Of a stretch of DNA of 64,000 nt, positions 8,528-17,314 are shown piece after piece. Every line of letters begins with the position of its first letter. Within the stretch, counting starts at the first letter, position 1. Both the position numbers and the translations under genes were made by a program. Source of the stretch: Haloferula rosea (GTDB lineage Bacteria > Verrucomicrobiota > Verrucomicrobiia > Verrucomicrobiales > Akkermansiaceae); NCBI RefSeq assembly GCF_016595525.1, contig NZ_JAENII010000015.1, positions 1 through 64,000 on the forward strand, given 5' to 3'. A model generated the notes under the pieces. The model did not search any database. It saw only the letters and a list, made by a program, of their open reading frames with translations, and was not told the origin of the DNA.

Positions 8528-9676
8528 TCAGCCTTTGAGACTTTCGACGATGGGCTGGCGCATCGTGCGCCATGCCGGCCAGAGCGAGGCGAACAAGCCG
8601 AGGAGCAGAGCCGCGGCGAGGCCGGTGATGACGACGACTCCATCCGGTTGGATGGCGAGCGTCTGCCCCTCATTGCCGAGGGTGAATGACTGCCAAGCGA
8701 GGAAGCCGGTAGCCAGAGCGACGCCGAGCACGCCGCCCATGAGTCCTAACAGGGCGCCCTCGCTCATCACCAGCCAGGCGATCGCCTGGCCGGGGTAGCC
8801 GAGGGTTTGGAGGACGGCATTCTCCTTCACCCGGCCGCGCACGATGAGCAGCACGGCATTGGCGATCAGCCCGCCGACGGCGAGCACGGCCCCGATTCCC
8901 AGCCATCGCGTGAAGCCGATCAACTCGATCAACTCTGCGGCGGTCTCGGCAAAGAATGCCTTCTCCGGGCGGGTGTTGGTCGGTTGCTGGTCGCTGTGAA
9001 AGCGCTGGTCGATGGCGGTTGCGACGGATTCGAGCTGGTCGGACGAGTCGACGCGCACGTTGAACTGGGTCACGATTCCCAGGCCGGTCTTCGATGCTTG
9101 TTGGAGGAAGGGGAGGCTGACGTAGGCAACGTTGTTGTCCTGCGGGAATGGCGAGCGGATGATGCCCGCGACGTGCACGGTCACCCCGGCGGCCACGAAT
9201 CGGTCACCGGGTGACAACCCGCGCCGTTGGGCGAAGACTTCACCGAGCAGGGCGCCGTCACTCCGGCGGTTCCATTCCTCGAGGCTGCCTGCGATGACTT
9301 CAATCTCGGGAGCGTAGCTGGTCAGCGCGCCTTCCGGGACGCCGCGGAAGGTGATGACATCGAGTGAGGCCCCGCAGTTGTTCACGACGACTTGGATCGG
9401 GACGACTTCGCGCACGCCGTCGATGGTACGGATCTCATCGGCGTAGTGTTCAGGAAGCCGGCTGGTCGAGGGACAGAAGCGGTTCTCGCGATAGACGACC
9501 AGGGTGGTGTCGGCCGCGGTGGTTTGGGTCGCGGTGGCGAGCGAGCGCTGCATGGTTTCGACGGCGGTGAAGAGGAACATGCCGGAGGCCACGCCAAGCA
9601 CGGTGAGCCCGGTCCGCAATCGATGGCGGACCAGTTGCTTCCACGCGAGGGAGAGGAGATTGACGATGGCGGTCAT
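8528..9676 (-). CDS. ABC transporter permease, FtsX/MacB-like
   Basis: A 382-residue permease paralogous to its downstream neighbour. It has an N-terminal helix after a short amphipathic stretch (LAWKQLVRHRLRTGLTVLGV), a periplasmic domain of about 220 residues, and C-terminal helices. The conserved cytoplasmic segment is RGRVKENAVLQTLGYPGQAI. The start codon overlaps the ATPase stop codon by four bases, so translation is coupled. It belongs to the MacB/LolCE-type mechanotransmission class rather than to importers, as no binding protein is near. Confidence 0.88.
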   Translation of the reverse strand: MTAIVNLLSLAWKQLVRHRLRTGLTVLGVASGMFLFTAVETMQRSLATATQTTAADTTLVVYRENRFCPSTSRLPEHYADEIRTIDGVREVVPIQVVVNNCGASLDVITFRGVPEGALTSYAPEIEVIAGSLEEWNRRSDGALLGEVFAQRRGLSPGDRFVAAGVTVHVAGIIRSPFPQDNNVAYVSLPFLQQASKTGLGIVTQFNVRVDSSDQLESVATAIDQRFHSDQQPTNTRPEKAFFAETAAELIELIGFTRWLGIGAVLAVGGLIANAVLLIVRGRVKENAVLQTLGYPGQAIAWLVMSEGALLGLMGGVLGVALATGFLAWQSFTLGNEGQTLAIQPDGVVVITGLAAALLLGLFASLWPAWRTMRQPIVESLKG

Positions 9677-10356
9677 GGCTGGGTGATGAGCAGGCCTTTT
9701 TCAAGGTGCAGGGTGCGGTCGGCGGCATCGGCGGCGCGGGGGTCGTGGGTGACCATGACGATGGTCTTCCCGTGCTCATGGGCGAGGGCTTGGAGCAGCT
9801 CGAGGATGCGGGTCGCGCTCTCGCGGTCGAGGTCTCCGGTCGGTTCGTCGGCGACGAGCAGTTTGGGATCCGCCACCAGGGCGCGGGCGATCGCCACGCG
9901 TTGTTCCTGTCCGCCGGATAGCTCGGTCGGACGGTGGTGCATGCGGTCGCTGAGCCCGACGAGTTCGAGTGCGGACTCCACCTTCTCGCGTCGTTCGCTC
10001 TTGCTCATGGAGTCGAGCAGCAGCGGCAACTCGACGTTCTCGAAGGCGGTGAGGATGGGTACCAGGTGATAGAGCTGGAAGATGTAGCCGATGTTCCGCG
10101 CCCGCCAGCGCGTGAGCTGTCCGCGGGAAAGGCTGCCGATTTCGCTCCCGGCGATCTCAAGGGTGCCCGATGTGGGTGAGTCGATCCCGGAGAGGAGATT
10201 GAGCAGGGTGGTCTTGCCGGACCCGGATGGTCCCATCAGGGCAAGGAACTGGCCTTCGGGCACCTCGAGGTCGAGGGCTTCCAATGGGGTGACGGTGGTA
10301 CTGCCTTTCTGGTAGGTCTTGGTCAGGCCACGGCAGAGGATCATGGGTTGGCTCAT
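9673..10356 (-). CDS. ABC transporter ATP-binding protein, LolD/MacB type
   Basis: A 227-residue ATPase that powers the exporter. It has Walker A GPSGSGKTT (residues 42-50), Q-loop IFQLYHLVP, signature LSGGQEQRVAIARAL, Walker B LLVADEPTGDLD and H-loop MVTHD. The sequence VPILTAFENVELPLLL is typical of the LolD/MacB/FtsE subfamily. It overlaps the adaptor gene upstream and the permease gene downstream by four bases each. Confidence 0.94.
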   Translation of the reverse strand: MSQPMILCRGLTKTYQKGSTTVTPLEALDLEVPEGQFLALMGPSGSGKTTLLNLLSGIDSPTSGTLEIAGSEIGSLSRGQLTRWRARNIGYIFQLYHLVPILTAFENVELPLLLDSMSKSERREKVESALELVGLSDRMHHRPTELSGGQEQRVAIARALVADPKLLVADEPTGDLDRESATRILELLQALAHEHGKTIVMVTHDPRAADAADRTLHLEKGLLITQP

Positions 10357-11720
10357 GGCTGGATGGGTTGGACTCGTTGTTCGCTGCGCAGGCCGGATGG
10401 GTCGAGGACGACCCGGGCTCCCGGGAGGATTCCGGCTTCGATCTTCCGCATGCCGTCGCGGGTGCTTCCGAGGACGACCTTGTGGGGTTTGACCCGGTCA
10501 CTGTCGGGGTCGACCACCCAGACCTGTTCGCCATCCACGGCTGCTTCGGGAACCCACAGGGTGATCCCGCGGGTCGGTGTGGCCGTGGTGGTTGAGGCTT
10601 CGTGGAATTCCACTCGACAGAGCATTTCCGGGCGCAGGGCGTCGTGGGGGTCTTCGATGACCACCTTTGCCTGCAGGGTGTTCCGCTGGATGTCGGCTTC
10701 GCCGACGATGCGGGTGACCGATCCGCGGAAGGATTGGTCGGGGAGCAGGTTGCAGCGGATGGTGGCGGGCTGGCCGACGTGCAGTCGGGCGGCATCGGCA
10801 AGTGGGACATCCACACGGACCTGGAGCTTTTCGGGGTCGTAGAGGATGGCGACGGTCGAGCTGTCGGGGTCATCCATTCCGAGCATGCGTTTCTGGCCCG
10901 GGGCGGCGAGCAGCCGCAGGATGCGTCCGCGGATGGGTGCACGGATTTCGGTGCGGGAGAGGGCGAGTTCGGCCTGGTCGACGGCGACCTGTCCGGCCTG
11001 GATCATGTGTTCCATCGAGACGGTTTCGTAGGCGAGTTCATTGAACTGGGCGGCGATCTGGGAGACTTTGGATTCGGCGGCGGTGACCAGGGCACTCACG
11101 CGTTCGTAGTCGAGCCTGGCATCGACGATGTCCCTTTCGGAGACGGCGCGGGTGCCACTGCGCTCGAGTCGGTCGAGTCGGTCCTTGGCGGCATTGCGCA
11201 CGGCGATGGCGGATTTCACCTGGGCCTGGATGCCCTTCATTTCCTCGATGGTGCTGGTGATGCCCGCGCAGTGAGCATCGCGGCTGGATTCGCGACGGCT
11301 GAGTTCCTGCCGTGCGGCGGCAAGAGCGAGTTCGTTGTCCTCGGCGATCAGGGTGGCGATGAGGTCGCCTTTCTCGACGAGCTGTCCTTCGAGGACATGG
11401 ACTTCATCGACCACGCCATCGATGAGGGCGGTGGCCTTGACGCTCCATGGGTCAGGCTCGACCCAGCCGGTGGCCTGGAAAAGGACCGCGCTGTCGGTGT
11501 CCACGGTGGTCGGGGATGCGGCGGAGGTTTCACCTGGCACGGCGATGGCCTGCGCGATCTTCACCTCGGTGGCGGGAAGCAGGCGGTCGCGGAAAAGGGT
11601 GATGAAAAGGAGGGCGAAGCCGAGCAGGATACCGAATGGCAGCATCCATGCTCGCGAGCGGCGCGGCGGTGGAGCGCTGTCGCGGTGACGGCTGAGTGAA
11701 TCGAGAGTGGAAGTGGTCAT
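10353..11720 (-). CDS. HlyD/MacA-type periplasmic adaptor protein
   Basis: A 455-residue membrane fusion protein. It has a cytoplasmic N terminus, one helix (about 26-43), a lipoyl/biotinyl half (TGWVEPDPWSVKATALIDG, EGQLVEKGDLIATL), a coiled-coil hairpin (about 120-250), the second lipoyl half (LSRTEIRAPIRGRILRLLAAPGQ) and beta-barrel domains. Such proteins join an inner-membrane transporter to an outer-membrane channel. No TolC-like gene occurs in the window, so the channel would be encoded elsewhere. It sits 98 bases downstream of a cysteine-rich exported protein and overlaps the ATPase gene. Confidence 0.88.
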   Translation of the reverse strand: MTTSTLDSLSRHRDSAPPPRRSRAWMLPFGILLGFALLFITLFRDRLLPATEVKIAQAIAVPGETSAASPTTVDTDSAVLFQATGWVEPDPWSVKATALIDGVVDEVHVLEGQLVEKGDLIATLIAEDNELALAAARQELSRRESSRDAHCAGITSTIEEMKGIQAQVKSAIAVRNAAKDRLDRLERSGTRAVSERDIVDARLDYERVSALVTAAESKVSQIAAQFNELAYETVSMEHMIQAGQVAVDQAELALSRTEIRAPIRGRILRLLAAPGQKRMLGMDDPDSSTVAILYDPEKLQVRVDVPLADAARLHVGQPATIRCNLLPDQSFRGSVTRIVGEADIQRNTLQAKVVIEDPHDALRPEMLCRVEFHEASTTTATPTRGITLWVPEAAVDGEQVWVVDPDSDRVKPHKVVLGSTRDGMRKIEAGILPGARVVLDPSGLRSEQRVQPIQP

Positions 11721-12820: not shown

Positions 12821-12849
12821 AAAGGGGCATCCGTCGGGTGCCCCTTTTT
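12821..12849 (+). terminator. Rho-independent terminator after b562-like gene
   Basis: AAAGGGGCA pairs with TGCCCCTTT across a 9-base loop and runs into a stretch of T ending at 12849. It is about 57 bases after the stop codon. Confidence 0.85.
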
Positions 12850-12971: not shown

Positions 12972-14639
12972 ATGAGCCGCGGCTGCGGTATGCTCTTCGG
13001 GATTGGCTGGACGGCCTTCAGCTCGATTTTCGTGGCGGTCGGCTTGTTTGCCTTCTGGAGCGGGGTGAAGACCCGGACGTGGGAGGAGGTTCCCTGCAAG
13101 ATCCTGAAATTCGAGATCATCGATGTGGTCAAGGAGGACCCGCCGTTCAAGGTCGAGCTGGCGTATCGCTATTCGGTCGATGGCAAGAGCTACACGGGCA
13201 CTCAACTCAAGGCGGAGTTCAAGGGTGAAGAGCAGTATGAGGACCTCGCTGAGATCGAGGATCGGATCTACGGTGGCGGTGAGGGCTCGGTGTGCTGGGT
13301 GAATCCCGATGACCCGACGGATGCGGTGCTTTTCCATGGTGGTGGAGACAGCTGGTTCGGGCTCATCTTCGTCGCTTTTGGCGGCGGCTTCGTGCTCATT
13401 GGTCTGGGGCTGATCTTTTCCGCATGGCGGGAAGGCAACCCGAAGAAGGCGGTGACCGAAGTCGGCGATGGCGAGGCCGATGGGAAACTTGGTGGGCTGT
13501 TGGGTTGTGGTTTTTTCGGGGTGTTCGCAGCGGTGGGTGTGGGCATGTTGCTGGGCTTGGTGGTACCCACCGGGTACCGCTATTTCGCCGTCAAGGGGTG
13601 GGTCGAAACCCCGGCGGAGGTAGTCTGGTCGCGGGTGCGGGAGAGTTCCGGCGACGATGGGCCGACCTACCGTGCTGACATCTTCTACAGCTATCAGTTC
13701 GAGGGGCGGAGCTATCGATCCAACGGCTACTCGCTGACGGGCGGAGGGGGCTCGAGTGGGCGGGATGGCAAACTGGAAATCGTGGAGGCGCATCCCAAGG
13801 GCAAGGCGATCACCTGTTATGTGAATCCCAAGCAACCGCGTGAAGCGCTGCTGAACCGGAGCCTCGGATGGTGGGCCCTGTTCGGTCTCTTCCCCTTGCC
13901 CTTCGCCGCGATCGGTCTGGGTGGGCTCTATGCGACCTTCATCCGCAAGGAGAAGCCGGCGGGAAAGAAGGCGAAGACGGGGAAGTCGGACAGGACGCCG
14001 CTGCGCATCGACCGAAGCCCCCCGTCGCGGAAAGGTTCGACGGTCGGGAAGCGTCTGCTGCACGTGCTCGGGGCCATCGCCATTGCCGCCTTCTGGAATG
14101 GGATCACTTCGGTGTTCGTGTGGCAGGTCTTCAAGGGGTGGAGGGACGGTGATTCGCCCTGGTTCCTGACTTTGTTCATGCTGCCGTTCGTGGCGGTCGG
14201 GATCGGGCTGATCATCCACGTGTTCTACCGCATCGTCGCGGTCTTCTCACCAATCTATGTGGTCGAGATCGGAGATGATACGATGTCGCCCGGCTCGCGC
14301 ACGTCGGTGTCGTGGCGGCGACGCGGTGGCTACGGCAGTCCTCGTCGACTGAGTGTCTGGCTGATCGGTCGTGAAGAGGCCACCTACCGACGGGGAACGG
14401 ACACGACGACGTCCACCGAATTGTTTTACGAAGAGTCGCTCTTTGAAACCGAAGTGAGCCAGATGATGCCAGCGGGGCGCTGTCGGCTCGACTTGCCCGA
14501 GGACGCGGTTCCGACCTTCGCCGGGAAGCACAACAAGCTGCAATGGTTCGTGGTGCTGGTGGCCGATGTGCCACGGCGTCCGGATGTGCGGGACGAGTAT
14601 GAAATCGTGGTCACGCCACAGGGAAGGAGCAGGTCATGA
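12972..14639 (+). CDS. Double DUF3592 membrane protein
   Basis: A 555-residue membrane protein with two DUF3592 units. Each unit is a beta domain following a helix: WEEVPCKILKFEI then LAYRYSVDGKSYTG and CWVNPDDPTDAVL (about 30-120), and later WVETPAEVVWSRV, FYSYQFEGRSYRS and CYVNPKQPREALL (about 205-300). Several helices separate them. A third helical block (about 360-420) leads to a C-terminal beta-rich domain of about 130 residues. That domain begins IYVVEIGDDTMSPGSRTSVS and looks arrestin-like; this part is inference. The ATG at 12972 follows a good ribosome binding site (GGGGGAG); the frame is open to 12933. It overlaps the next gene by four bases. Function unknown. Confidence 0.8.
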   Translation: MSRGCGMLFGIGWTAFSSIFVAVGLFAFWSGVKTRTWEEVPCKILKFEIIDVVKEDPPFKVELAYRYSVDGKSYTGTQLKAEFKGEEQYEDLAEIEDRIYGGGEGSVCWVNPDDPTDAVLFHGGGDSWFGLIFVAFGGGFVLIGLGLIFSAWREGNPKKAVTEVGDGEADGKLGGLLGCGFFGVFAAVGVGMLLGLVVPTGYRYFAVKGWVETPAEVVWSRVRESSGDDGPTYRADIFYSYQFEGRSYRSNGYSLTGGGGSSGRDGKLEIVEAHPKGKAITCYVNPKQPREALLNRSLGWWALFGLFPLPFAAIGLGGLYATFIRKEKPAGKKAKTGKSDRTPLRIDRSPPSRKGSTVGKRLLHVLGAIAIAAFWNGITSVFVWQVFKGWRDGDSPWFLTLFMLPFVAVGIGLIIHVFYRIVAVFSPIYVVEIGDDTMSPGSRTSVSWRRRGGYGSPRRLSVWLIGREEATYRRGTDTTTSTELFYEESLFETEVSQMMPAGRCRLDLPEDAVPTFAGKHNKLQWFVVLVADVPRRPDVRDEYEIVVTPQGRSRS

Positions 14640-15022
14640 GCATTCAATCGATCGAACTTGAGGGAGATGAGTGCTGCCAGCCCGGCAGCACCGTGCGGGG
14701 TCGGGTGGTGGGATCACGGATCGCCGGGGAGGTCCGCTTGTTCTGGAACACTTGTGGGCGTGGCACCGAAGAGGTCGGTGTGGTGGACCGGCAGCCCTTG
14801 TCCGGAGATGGGCGCTTCAGCCTCACGCTGGCAGAGGCTCCCTTCACCACGCAGGGCACGTTGGTCAGTATCGAATGGGGGATCGAATGGGTCGATGACT
14901 CGGGCGATGCCGTGGATCGCCGCGAGATTGTGGTTTCTCCCAGCGGCCGTCCGATCCGTCTTGCGCGGGTGGACGAACCCAAGAGTTCAAAATCCAAGCG
15001 GGTATGGAAATGGACGCGTTGA
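14636..15022 (+). CDS. Small beta-sandwich (arrestin-like?) protein
   Basis: A 128-residue cytoplasmic protein that starts inside the stop codon of the DUF3592 gene. Its strands alternate in an Ig/arrestin-like way: CCQPGSTVRGRVVG, EVRLFWNTCGRG, DGRFSLTLAEAPFTTQGTLV and SIEWGIEWVDD. The pattern resembles the end of the upstream DUF3592 protein, which suggests a related module. The C-terminal tail is basic. No database family is recognised with confidence. Coupled translation with both neighbours suggests a protein complex. Confidence 0.6.
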   Translation: MSIQSIELEGDECCQPGSTVRGRVVGSRIAGEVRLFWNTCGRGTEEVGVVDRQPLSGDGRFSLTLAEAPFTTQGTLVSIEWGIEWVDDSGDAVDRREIVVSPSGRPIRLARVDEPKSSKSKRVWKWTR

Positions 15023-15588
15023 ATGCACGCGACAATCCTTTCGCCACCCGGCGGGTGGAACGTTGTCTCGTCTTTGACCCGACACTGGTCGGCACGCGCT
15101 GGAGTGACTTGCTGGAACGGTGGGACCAGCTCGGTCGGCGGGCCTGTGTGGTGGGGCCTCACGGGGCGGGCAAAAGCACGTTCCTTGATGCATTCGTCGA
15201 CCGCCTCGATGTGCCGGTGGTGCGTTTCTTTTTCAACCGCGACAAGCGGTGCTTGAGCGATGATGACTTGCACAAGATGGAGGACGGTCGAGGCAGGATC
15301 TGGATGGCGGATGGTGATACCCACCTCGGGTTTTCCGAGCGTCGGCGGTTTCATCGGGCGTCGAGAGAGGCGGCCGGATTTCTTTCCGCCCGCCACCGGA
15401 CTCGAGGGCTTCCCGTGCTGCTTCGTCTGAAGCCTGACCTGGCGCTGGCCCGGGTGCTCCTCCATCGCGCTCACCCCGAGGGTGCTCCTTCACTCGAGCC
15501 GTTGGTTGTCGAGGCCTTCCGCCGTCGTCGCGGCAACCTTCGCCACCTGTGGCTCGACTGCTACGATCACCTAGCGGGGAGACGGTAG
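15004..15588 (+). CDS. P-loop ATPase of the DUF3592 operon
   Basis: A 194-residue cytoplasmic NTPase overlapping the preceding gene by 19 bases. It opens NPFATRRVERCLVF and has Walker A GPHGAGKST (51-59) and a possible Walker B region GRIWMADGD. The rest is Arg-rich and ends in DCYDHLAGRR. I recall planctomycete relatives with an NPF-x-T-R start and a GPHGSGKST loop, of unknown role. It may bind a nucleotide to regulate or energise the membrane protein. The start could also be the ATG two codons later. Confidence 0.7.
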   Translation: MEMDALNARDNPFATRRVERCLVFDPTLVGTRWSDLLERWDQLGRRACVVGPHGAGKSTFLDAFVDRLDVPVVRFFFNRDKRCLSDDDLHKMEDGRGRIWMADGDTHLGFSERRRFHRASREAAGFLSARHRTRGLPVLLRLKPDLALARVLLHRAHPEGAPSLEPLVVEAFRRRRGNLRHLWLDCYDHLAGRR

Positions 15589-15745: not shown

Positions 15746-17314
15746 ATGAAGGATTTTTCATCTGCGTTTTTCGGTCTCGCCTTGGCGGCGGCCATGGTTC
15801 CGCTCTCCGCATCCGCGCGTAAGCCGAATGTGGTTTTCTTTCTTTGTGATGACTACGGCATCATGGACGTGGGGATTGAAGGCAGCACGTTCTACGAGAC
15901 TCCTCGTATTGATGATCTGGCGCGGAAGGGGATGAGGTTCACCGAGGGGTATGCGACGTGCCAGGTATGCAGTCCGTCACGGGCGAGCATCATGCTCGGG
16001 ACCTATCCGGCGAGAAACGGGATCACCAACTGGATCGGTGCGGCGGTGGGGGCCAGGCAGGCGAAGGCCAAGCGCCAGCCGATCATGCCGCCGGACTATG
16101 TCAGGGCCCTGCCGAAGGATGAGACGACCCTGGCCGAGGCATTCAAGGAAGGCGGCTACAAGACCTTCTTTGCGGGGAAGTGGCATTTGGGGGGAGAGGG
16201 TTCGTGGCCGGAGGATCATGGTTTCGACATCAACAAGGGCGGCTGGTCCGTCGGTAGTCCCGGTGGCGGCTTCTTTGCGCCATGGAAGAATCCTCGTTTG
16301 CAGAGTGGCCCGGACGGGGAGTCCCTGACCCTTCGGCTCGGCCGGGAGACGGCCAAGTTCATCAAGGAGAGTGGGGACGAGCCGTTCTTCGCCTACCTGT
16401 CATTTTACGCCGTGCACGGTCCCCTGCAGACGACCGAGGCGCTGTGGGAGAAGTATCGTGCCAAGGCAGCGAAGCAGGCAGCACCCAAGGAGCGCTTCAA
16501 GATCGATCGGACCCTGCCGGTTCGGCAGGTGCAGGATCATCCGGTGTATGCCGGCATGGTCGAGACCATGGACACCGCGGTGGGACTGGTGATGGATGCG
16601 CTTGAGGAAGCGGGCGTGGCGGAGCACACGATCGTCTGCTTCACGTCGGACAATGGCGGGGTGGTTTCCGGCGATGCCTACGCGACGTCCCAATTTCCCT
16701 ATCGCGGCGGCAAGGGGCGCCAGTGGGAAGGGGGGATTCGCGAGCCGTATTACATCATCGCGCCCGGAGTGACACGGCCGGGTAGCACGACGGAGGTTCC
16801 AGCGACGGGAACGGATTTCTATCCGACGCTTCTGGAACTCGCGGGTCTGCCGCTGCGACCCGAGCAGCACGTGGACGGTGTGAGTCTGGTGCCGGTCCTG
16901 AAGGGTGGCAAAATCGACGAGCGGGCCTTGTTCTGGCACTACCCGCATTTCGGGAACCAAGGGGGTGAGCCGTCATCCATCATCCGGAAAGGCGACTGGA
17001 AGCTGATCCACTACTGGGCAGACGGACGTCGGGAGCTCTACCAACTGTCGGAAGACCAAGGCGAGACCGAGGACCTGGCGGCGAAGTATCCCGAGCGGGT
17101 GCAGTCGATGGGGGCGGAGCTGGAAGGATTCCTGAAGGAATCCGGGGCGAAGACGCCGAAGCCGTGGGCCGGCTACCAGCCGGAGATGGCCGAGCAGAAC
17201 CGCAAGGTGGCCCTGCGTGTGATGGAACAACAGGAGAGGAGTCAAAGCCAGATGCTGGAAGAAGGCTGGAAGCCGAATCCGGACTGGTGGAGCAGCTCGA
17301 AAGGGACACCGTGA
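15746..17314 (+). CDS. Formylglycine-type sulfatase, exported
   Basis: A 522-residue arylsulfatase-family enzyme with signal peptide (FGLALAAAMVPLSASA). It has PNVVFFLCDDYG (metal-binding Asp pair near the N terminus) and the catalytic C-S-P-S-R at residues 75-79; Cys75 would become formylglycine. The FAGKWHLG lysine/histidine motif, SDNGG and an RGGKGRQWEGGIREP block follow. The substrate is unknown, but polysaccharide sulfate esters are usual targets in Verrucomicrobiota. The frame is open up to 15626; the ATG at 15746 is chosen for the signal peptide. A modifying enzyme (FGE or anSME) is not in the window. Confidence 0.93.
   Translation: MKDFSSAFFGLALAAAMVPLSASARKPNVVFFLCDDYGIMDVGIEGSTFYETPRIDDLARKGMRFTEGYATCQVCSPSRASIMLGTYPARNGITNWIGAAVGARQAKAKRQPIMPPDYVRALPKDETTLAEAFKEGGYKTFFAGKWHLGGEGSWPEDHGFDINKGGWSVGSPGGGFFAPWKNPRLQSGPDGESLTLRLGRETAKFIKESGDEPFFAYLSFYAVHGPLQTTEALWEKYRAKAAKQAAPKERFKIDRTLPVRQVQDHPVYAGMVETMDTAVGLVMDALEEAGVAEHTIVCFTSDNGGVVSGDAYATSQFPYRGGKGRQWEGGIREPYYIIAPGVTRPGSTTEVPATGTDFYPTLLELAGLPLRPEQHVDGVSLVPVLKGGKIDERALFWHYPHFGNQGGEPSSIIRKGDWKLIHYWADGRRELYQLSEDQGETEDLAAKYPERVQSMGAELEGFLKESGAKTPKPWAGYQPEMAEQNRKVALRVMEQQERSQSQMLEEGWKPNPDWWSSSKGTP

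Follow-up and report, generated by a model that had tools for sequence, protein, structure and literature searches.

An operon of three genes in Haloferula rosea probably encodes a membrane-anchored adaptor of the arrestin clan, split over two genes (P1 and P2) and served by a dedicated ORC/STAND-like nucleotide-switch NTPase (P3). The operon lies in the window, a term used here for the whole stretch of 64,000 nucleotides that was analysed, and its features are collected in Table 1. What is known of arrestins comes mainly from signalling in eukaryotes. The arrestin-like fold itself is already known, and it is the split, membrane-anchored and NTPase-partnered arrangement that appears to be new here. 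The reading draws on gene order, conservation, co-occurrence and gene fusions, all of them observed, together with predicted folds for the two lobes and the NTPase and a predicted membrane topology.

Table 1. Features of the operon and of the region before it (positions in the window).
Feature	Position	Strand	Remarks
Stem-loop with T-run	12824..12849	+	spotted by eye
P1 gene	12972..14639	+	555 aa; ORF call and sequence, PF12158, hydropathy and charge
DUF3592 domain 1	13143..13343	+	PF12158; predicted extracytoplasmic
DUF3592 domain 2	13608..13862	+	PF12158; predicted extracytoplasmic
P1C, first arrestin-like beta-sandwich lobe	14244..14636	+	residues 425-555, predicted cytosolic; Arrestin_N 17.4 bits, fusion model, fold search
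P2 gene	14636..15022	+	128 aa; related second beta-sandwich lobe, arrestin-like
P3 gene	15019..15588	+	predicted minimal AAA+ NTPase; 189 aa from TTG 15019 (194 aa from ATG 15004)
Walker A GPHGAGKS	15154..15177	+	G46, G49, G51 and K52 invariant in 60 homologues
Walker B strand ending ADG	15298..15315	+	Asp in 60/60 homologues, then Gly in 58/60 in place of the usual catalytic Glu
GNLR, sensor-2-like Arg motif	15532..15543	+	Arg in 58/60 homologues

The three overlapping reading frames proposed in the first-pass annotation are all present, and the 4-base overlap given there for P1 and P2 stands (ATGA at 14636), but the 19-base overlap between P2 and P3 was dropped. It presupposes a start at ATG 15004, and the homologues of P3 begin with M-x-A-x-x-N-P-F, for which the matching codon in the window is TTG 15019; TTG 15019 is therefore taken as the likely start, and P3 would then also overlap the stop of P2 by 4 bases (TTGA). 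The same 4-base overlap is the most frequent spacing in relatives, both between P1 and P2 (29 of 71) and between P2 and P3 (23 of 58). Alternative in-frame starts of P1 are found upstream at GTG 12933 and ATG 12945, and a strong Shine-Dalgarno-like GGGGGAG precedes only ATG 12972 among the candidates. The stem-loop, which is missing from the terminator-scan output, probably ends the transcript upstream of the operon. From a reading of the translations by eye, the window also holds genes resembling a MacAB-type ABC export system on the minus strand (8528-11720; permease, ATPase and HlyD-like adaptor), and a sulfatase-like gene (15746-17314) after the operon.

Scanning of genome contigs with a P1 profile gave 151 relatives, 80 of which were kept for a locus survey, and these span Verrucomicrobiota, Planctomycetota, Acidobacteriota, Desulfobacterota (Desulfobacteraceae) and Bdellovibrionota (Bdellovibrionales). 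Of the 75 surveyed loci with room for it, 74 have P2 directly after P1, and in 58 of these 74 P3 comes next; about a fifth of the P1-P2 loci have no adjoining P3, and a nearby P3 is thus not a constant requirement. Besides the window, the order P1-P2-P3 is found at 12 loci of the same genus (at L026, P1 is cut by the contig end), and the complete trio is present in an order-level relative (L029). The first-pass reading had been staked on the trio not being confined to close relatives, and it was found across several phyla. In a set of 388 genomes from the phylum there are 15 carriers of P3 and 26 of P2, and all 15 carriers of P3 also have P2 (Fisher p 2e-20, ignoring shared ancestry); among 38 relatives P3 is present in 16, again always with P2 (16/16; Fisher p 7e-9, likewise ignoring shared ancestry). 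In two genomes (G027 and G036) both P2 and P3 are kept, at unlinked places. Although the tests ignore phylogeny, a functional tie is favoured by the unlinked cases and by the distribution over several phyla. In G036 there is an overlap between the P3 homologue and the stop of a gene for a PhoR-like histidine kinase, which itself comes after a PhoB-like regulator (L031:7556-10359), and P1-P2 are located elsewhere (L201); this arrangement may hint at a link to signalling.

P1 had been described as a double DUF3592 membrane protein, and two DUF3592 (PF12158) domains were indeed recognised, scoring 88 bits where the cut-off is 25.3, which places it beside other DUF3592 membrane proteins. Its hydropathy profile indicates six membrane segments, separated in turn by long DUF3592-bearing loops and by short loops. 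The loop 325-361, which precedes the last two helices, contains 14 Lys or Arg against 3 Asp or Glu. From this pattern it is predicted that the DUF3592 domains lie outside the cytoplasm and that the C-terminal lobe is in the cytosol. In the open-access literature DUF3592 was met in a single mention, in an unrelated paper, with no role described. A second DUF3592 gene is present in the window's own genome apart from the operon (G000:C22:223734-223991), and in several genomes of the genus DUF3592 paralogues stand directly upstream of P1 (L020:11229-12308; L023:10782-12753; L024:11062-12051). Some relatives have another DUF3592 gene after P2 instead of the ATPase (L086:6614-7744, the same record as L199:5665-6798; L202:5571-6236).

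It was proposed at first pass that the C-terminus of P1 and the whole of P2 are related arrestin-type modules, and profile comparison, a fold search with a natural fusion and Pfam matches agree with this. The best hhalign match between P1C and P2 has E 3.7e-6 and a probability of 87%, other alignment pairings being weaker, and MAFFT tended to draw the rows of P1C and P2 onto one and the same fusion domain. A mixed alignment of P1, P2 and fusions (A6) was discarded as model input because P1C landed on P2 columns. Single-frame fusions of P1C and P2 occur at L079, L088, L089, L110 (two tandem genes), L111, L140, L170 and L194, always in the order P1C then P2; those of L079, L088, L089, L110 (twice) and L111 belong to a genus-level group which includes a one-contig genome. 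The tandem fusion genes (L110:2616-6080) lie downstream of a transporter-like membrane protein, and a related gene is found beside L079, L088 and L089. The L079 fusion was modelled from 32 sequences, comprising only P1 rows and six fusion sequences, and the model (pLDDT 81, pTM 0.50) has the tandem beta-sandwich lobes characteristic of the arrestin clan, at about 281-401 and 414-524. When it was compared with the PDB, 50 of 50 among the matches listed were arrestin-clan proteins (E down to 3e-11), including C. elegans ARRD-6, TXNIP, VPS26, retriever VPS26C and visual and beta-arrestins. The alignments cover 286-357 columns, nearly the whole of the two-domain targets, and in the model would thus span both lobes. 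TM-scores were low (0.15-0.19 by query), probably because a single rigid superposition is unable to fit two lobes of uncertain orientation.

Sequence comparison gives weak arrestin matches, most of them with E-values far above a strict limit. The P2 profile found only TXNIP and VPS26B among PDB sequences (best E 0.017), and that of P1C gave there only repetitive designed, cell-surface and adhesin matches, which are uninformative. Pfam matches of both lobes are concentrated in Arrestin_N, Arrestin_C, Rgp1 and Spo0M: members of the P2 family matched Arrestin_C (best 5.9e-7) and Arrestin_N, and members of the P1C family all four models, of which Rgp1 is also part of the arrestin-like group. The proteins of the window do not reach the curated Pfam arrestin cut-off (P1C 17.4 against 24.9 bits with Arrestin_N; P2 without a match), and for this reason P1C and P2 are labelled as having an arrestin-like fold, as probable relatives of the clan and not as Pfam members. 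Natural fusions join P1C and P2, which for this reason resemble the halves of a single bilobed arrestin more than a pair of independent adaptors. Support for the arrestin anatomy is good, and the arrangement between the lobes is a tentative prediction of the model.

The third protein, for which a clear Walker A had been noted, has in its model (pLDDT 95) a compact core of the AAA+ type that carries a lid of three helices, its nearest folds being RFC, DnaX, RarA (MgsA) and ORC, and members of its family score with AAA_16, AAA_22, nSTAND_NTPase5 and NACHT. Fold, Walker A, small helical lid and sensor-2 Arg are thus shared with ORC/Cdc6, clamp-loader and STAND NTPases, the STAND likeness extending to the nSTAND5, NACHT and AAA_16 matches, and the NPF box at the N-terminus resembles the N-terminal box of ORC/STAND proteins. 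The sensor-1 strand carries a His which is invariant in the 60 homologues. In contrast to these NTPases P3 is very short, ends after the helical lid without winged-helix, repeat or effector regions, and has Gly for Glu in Walker B; an acid at +3 of this motif is present in 53 of 60 homologues and replaced by Thr in the window. With these motifs, and with the usual Glu absent, P3 would be expected to act as a nucleotide switch and not as a motor.

The following mechanism can be proposed. P1 would sit in the inner membrane by its six helices, with both DUF3592 beta-domains in the periplasm and the first arrestin lobe in the cytosol, and P2 would dock onto P1C as the second lobe, rebuilding a bilobed arrestin which in some lineages is a single chain. 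A cue might be received by the periplasmic DUF3592 domains or by the membrane helices, and the cytosolic arrestin pair would bind partners. P3, as a minimal ORC/STAND-like AAA+ module, would most likely bind the P1C-P2 module, and its nucleotide state would set whether this module is open to partners or clustered, thereby gating partner binding. The likely task of the trio would be to relay a signal from the envelope or membrane to particular membrane or cytosolic proteins, or to hold such proteins together. From docking of P2 to switching by P3 and the adaptor function, these steps are inferred from the predicted parts.

The main rival is a role in sorting or quality control of membrane proteins, in which the arrestin module would be a cargo adaptor similar to VPS26 or alpha-arrestins and would present membrane proteins to P3 or to a protease, without relay of a signal. 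It is judged unlikely, but it agrees with the trafficking adaptors ARRD-6, TXNIP and VPS26 being the nearest folds among the matches listed, and with bacterial Spo0M, which has an effect on sporulation, serves as a substrate for degradation by FtsH in vitro and interacts with proteins of division and membrane organisation (PMC5325327). These properties of Spo0M make membrane organisation a reasonable setting for the trio. On the other hand, outside the synteny that is ordinary within a genus, the trio has no protease, chaperone or other gene as a recurrent neighbour, and the altered Walker B of P3 speaks against a motor. That P1C and P2 are merely related beta-sandwich structural partners, with a generic arrestin likeness implying no adaptor function, is improbable. 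The weak sequence-level matches, the scores of the window proteins under the curated cut-off and the uncertain inter-lobe geometry (pTM 0.50) would fit it; yet the 50 best structural matches listed, out of all beta-sandwich proteins of the PDB, belong to the arrestin clan, independent sequence profiles converge on the same clan and the lobe order is constant in all fusions. An anti-phage or conflict system with a STAND-like NTPase sensor and a membrane effector, to which the nSTAND_NTPase5 and NACHT scores might point, is very unlikely: PADLOC gave no match to P1 or P2 and nothing beyond weak P-loop-type matches to P3, in which no effector or repeat domain can be recognised. Within the genus the neighbours are mostly stable, with a Ham1/RdgB-type gene on the upstream side and a small conserved gene on the downstream side, and relatives searched have one P2 per genome.

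The split adaptor with its NTPase has to be set beside the known members of the clan, which comprises Spo0M (PF07070) in archaea and bacteria and arrestin and Vps26 in eukaryotes (PMC2515105). With alpha-arrestins/TXNIP, visual and beta-arrestins and VPS26 it shares two consecutive beta-sandwich lobes, the best structural matches and weak Arrestin_N and Arrestin_C matches, but it is bacterial, one lobe is carried by a DUF3592 membrane protein and the other usually by a separate gene, and the partner is an AAA+ NTPase. Spo0M is likewise a prokaryotic protein of the clan, but the descriptions consulted give it no split, six-TM, AAA+-partnered arrangement. Identity of the trio with Spo0M was ruled out: PF07070 gave 0 matches in the window's own genome, with control genomes matched as expected, and single weak matches among 74 P2 and 80 P1C members. 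In the open-access literature no description of a bacterial arrestin with an AAA+ partner or of the P1-P2-P3 trio was found.

The stronger claim, that several bacterial phyla possess a true arrestin-type adaptor with two separately encoded lobes, a periplasm-sensing membrane protein and its own ORC/STAND-like NTPase gate, is possible though doubtful. In eukaryotes arrestins and VPS26 have organising roles in receptor signalling and in membrane traffic. The trio would represent a second bacterial arrestin-like system beside Spo0M, broadly spread, anchored in the membrane and provided with an NTPase of its own. It would provide DUF3592 with a context, could serve as a simple system for studying the assembly of two arrestin lobes and makes the origins of arrestins more testable. 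If the claim is true, receptor-linked arrestin logic would exist in bacteria independently of G-protein signalling and of Spo0M.
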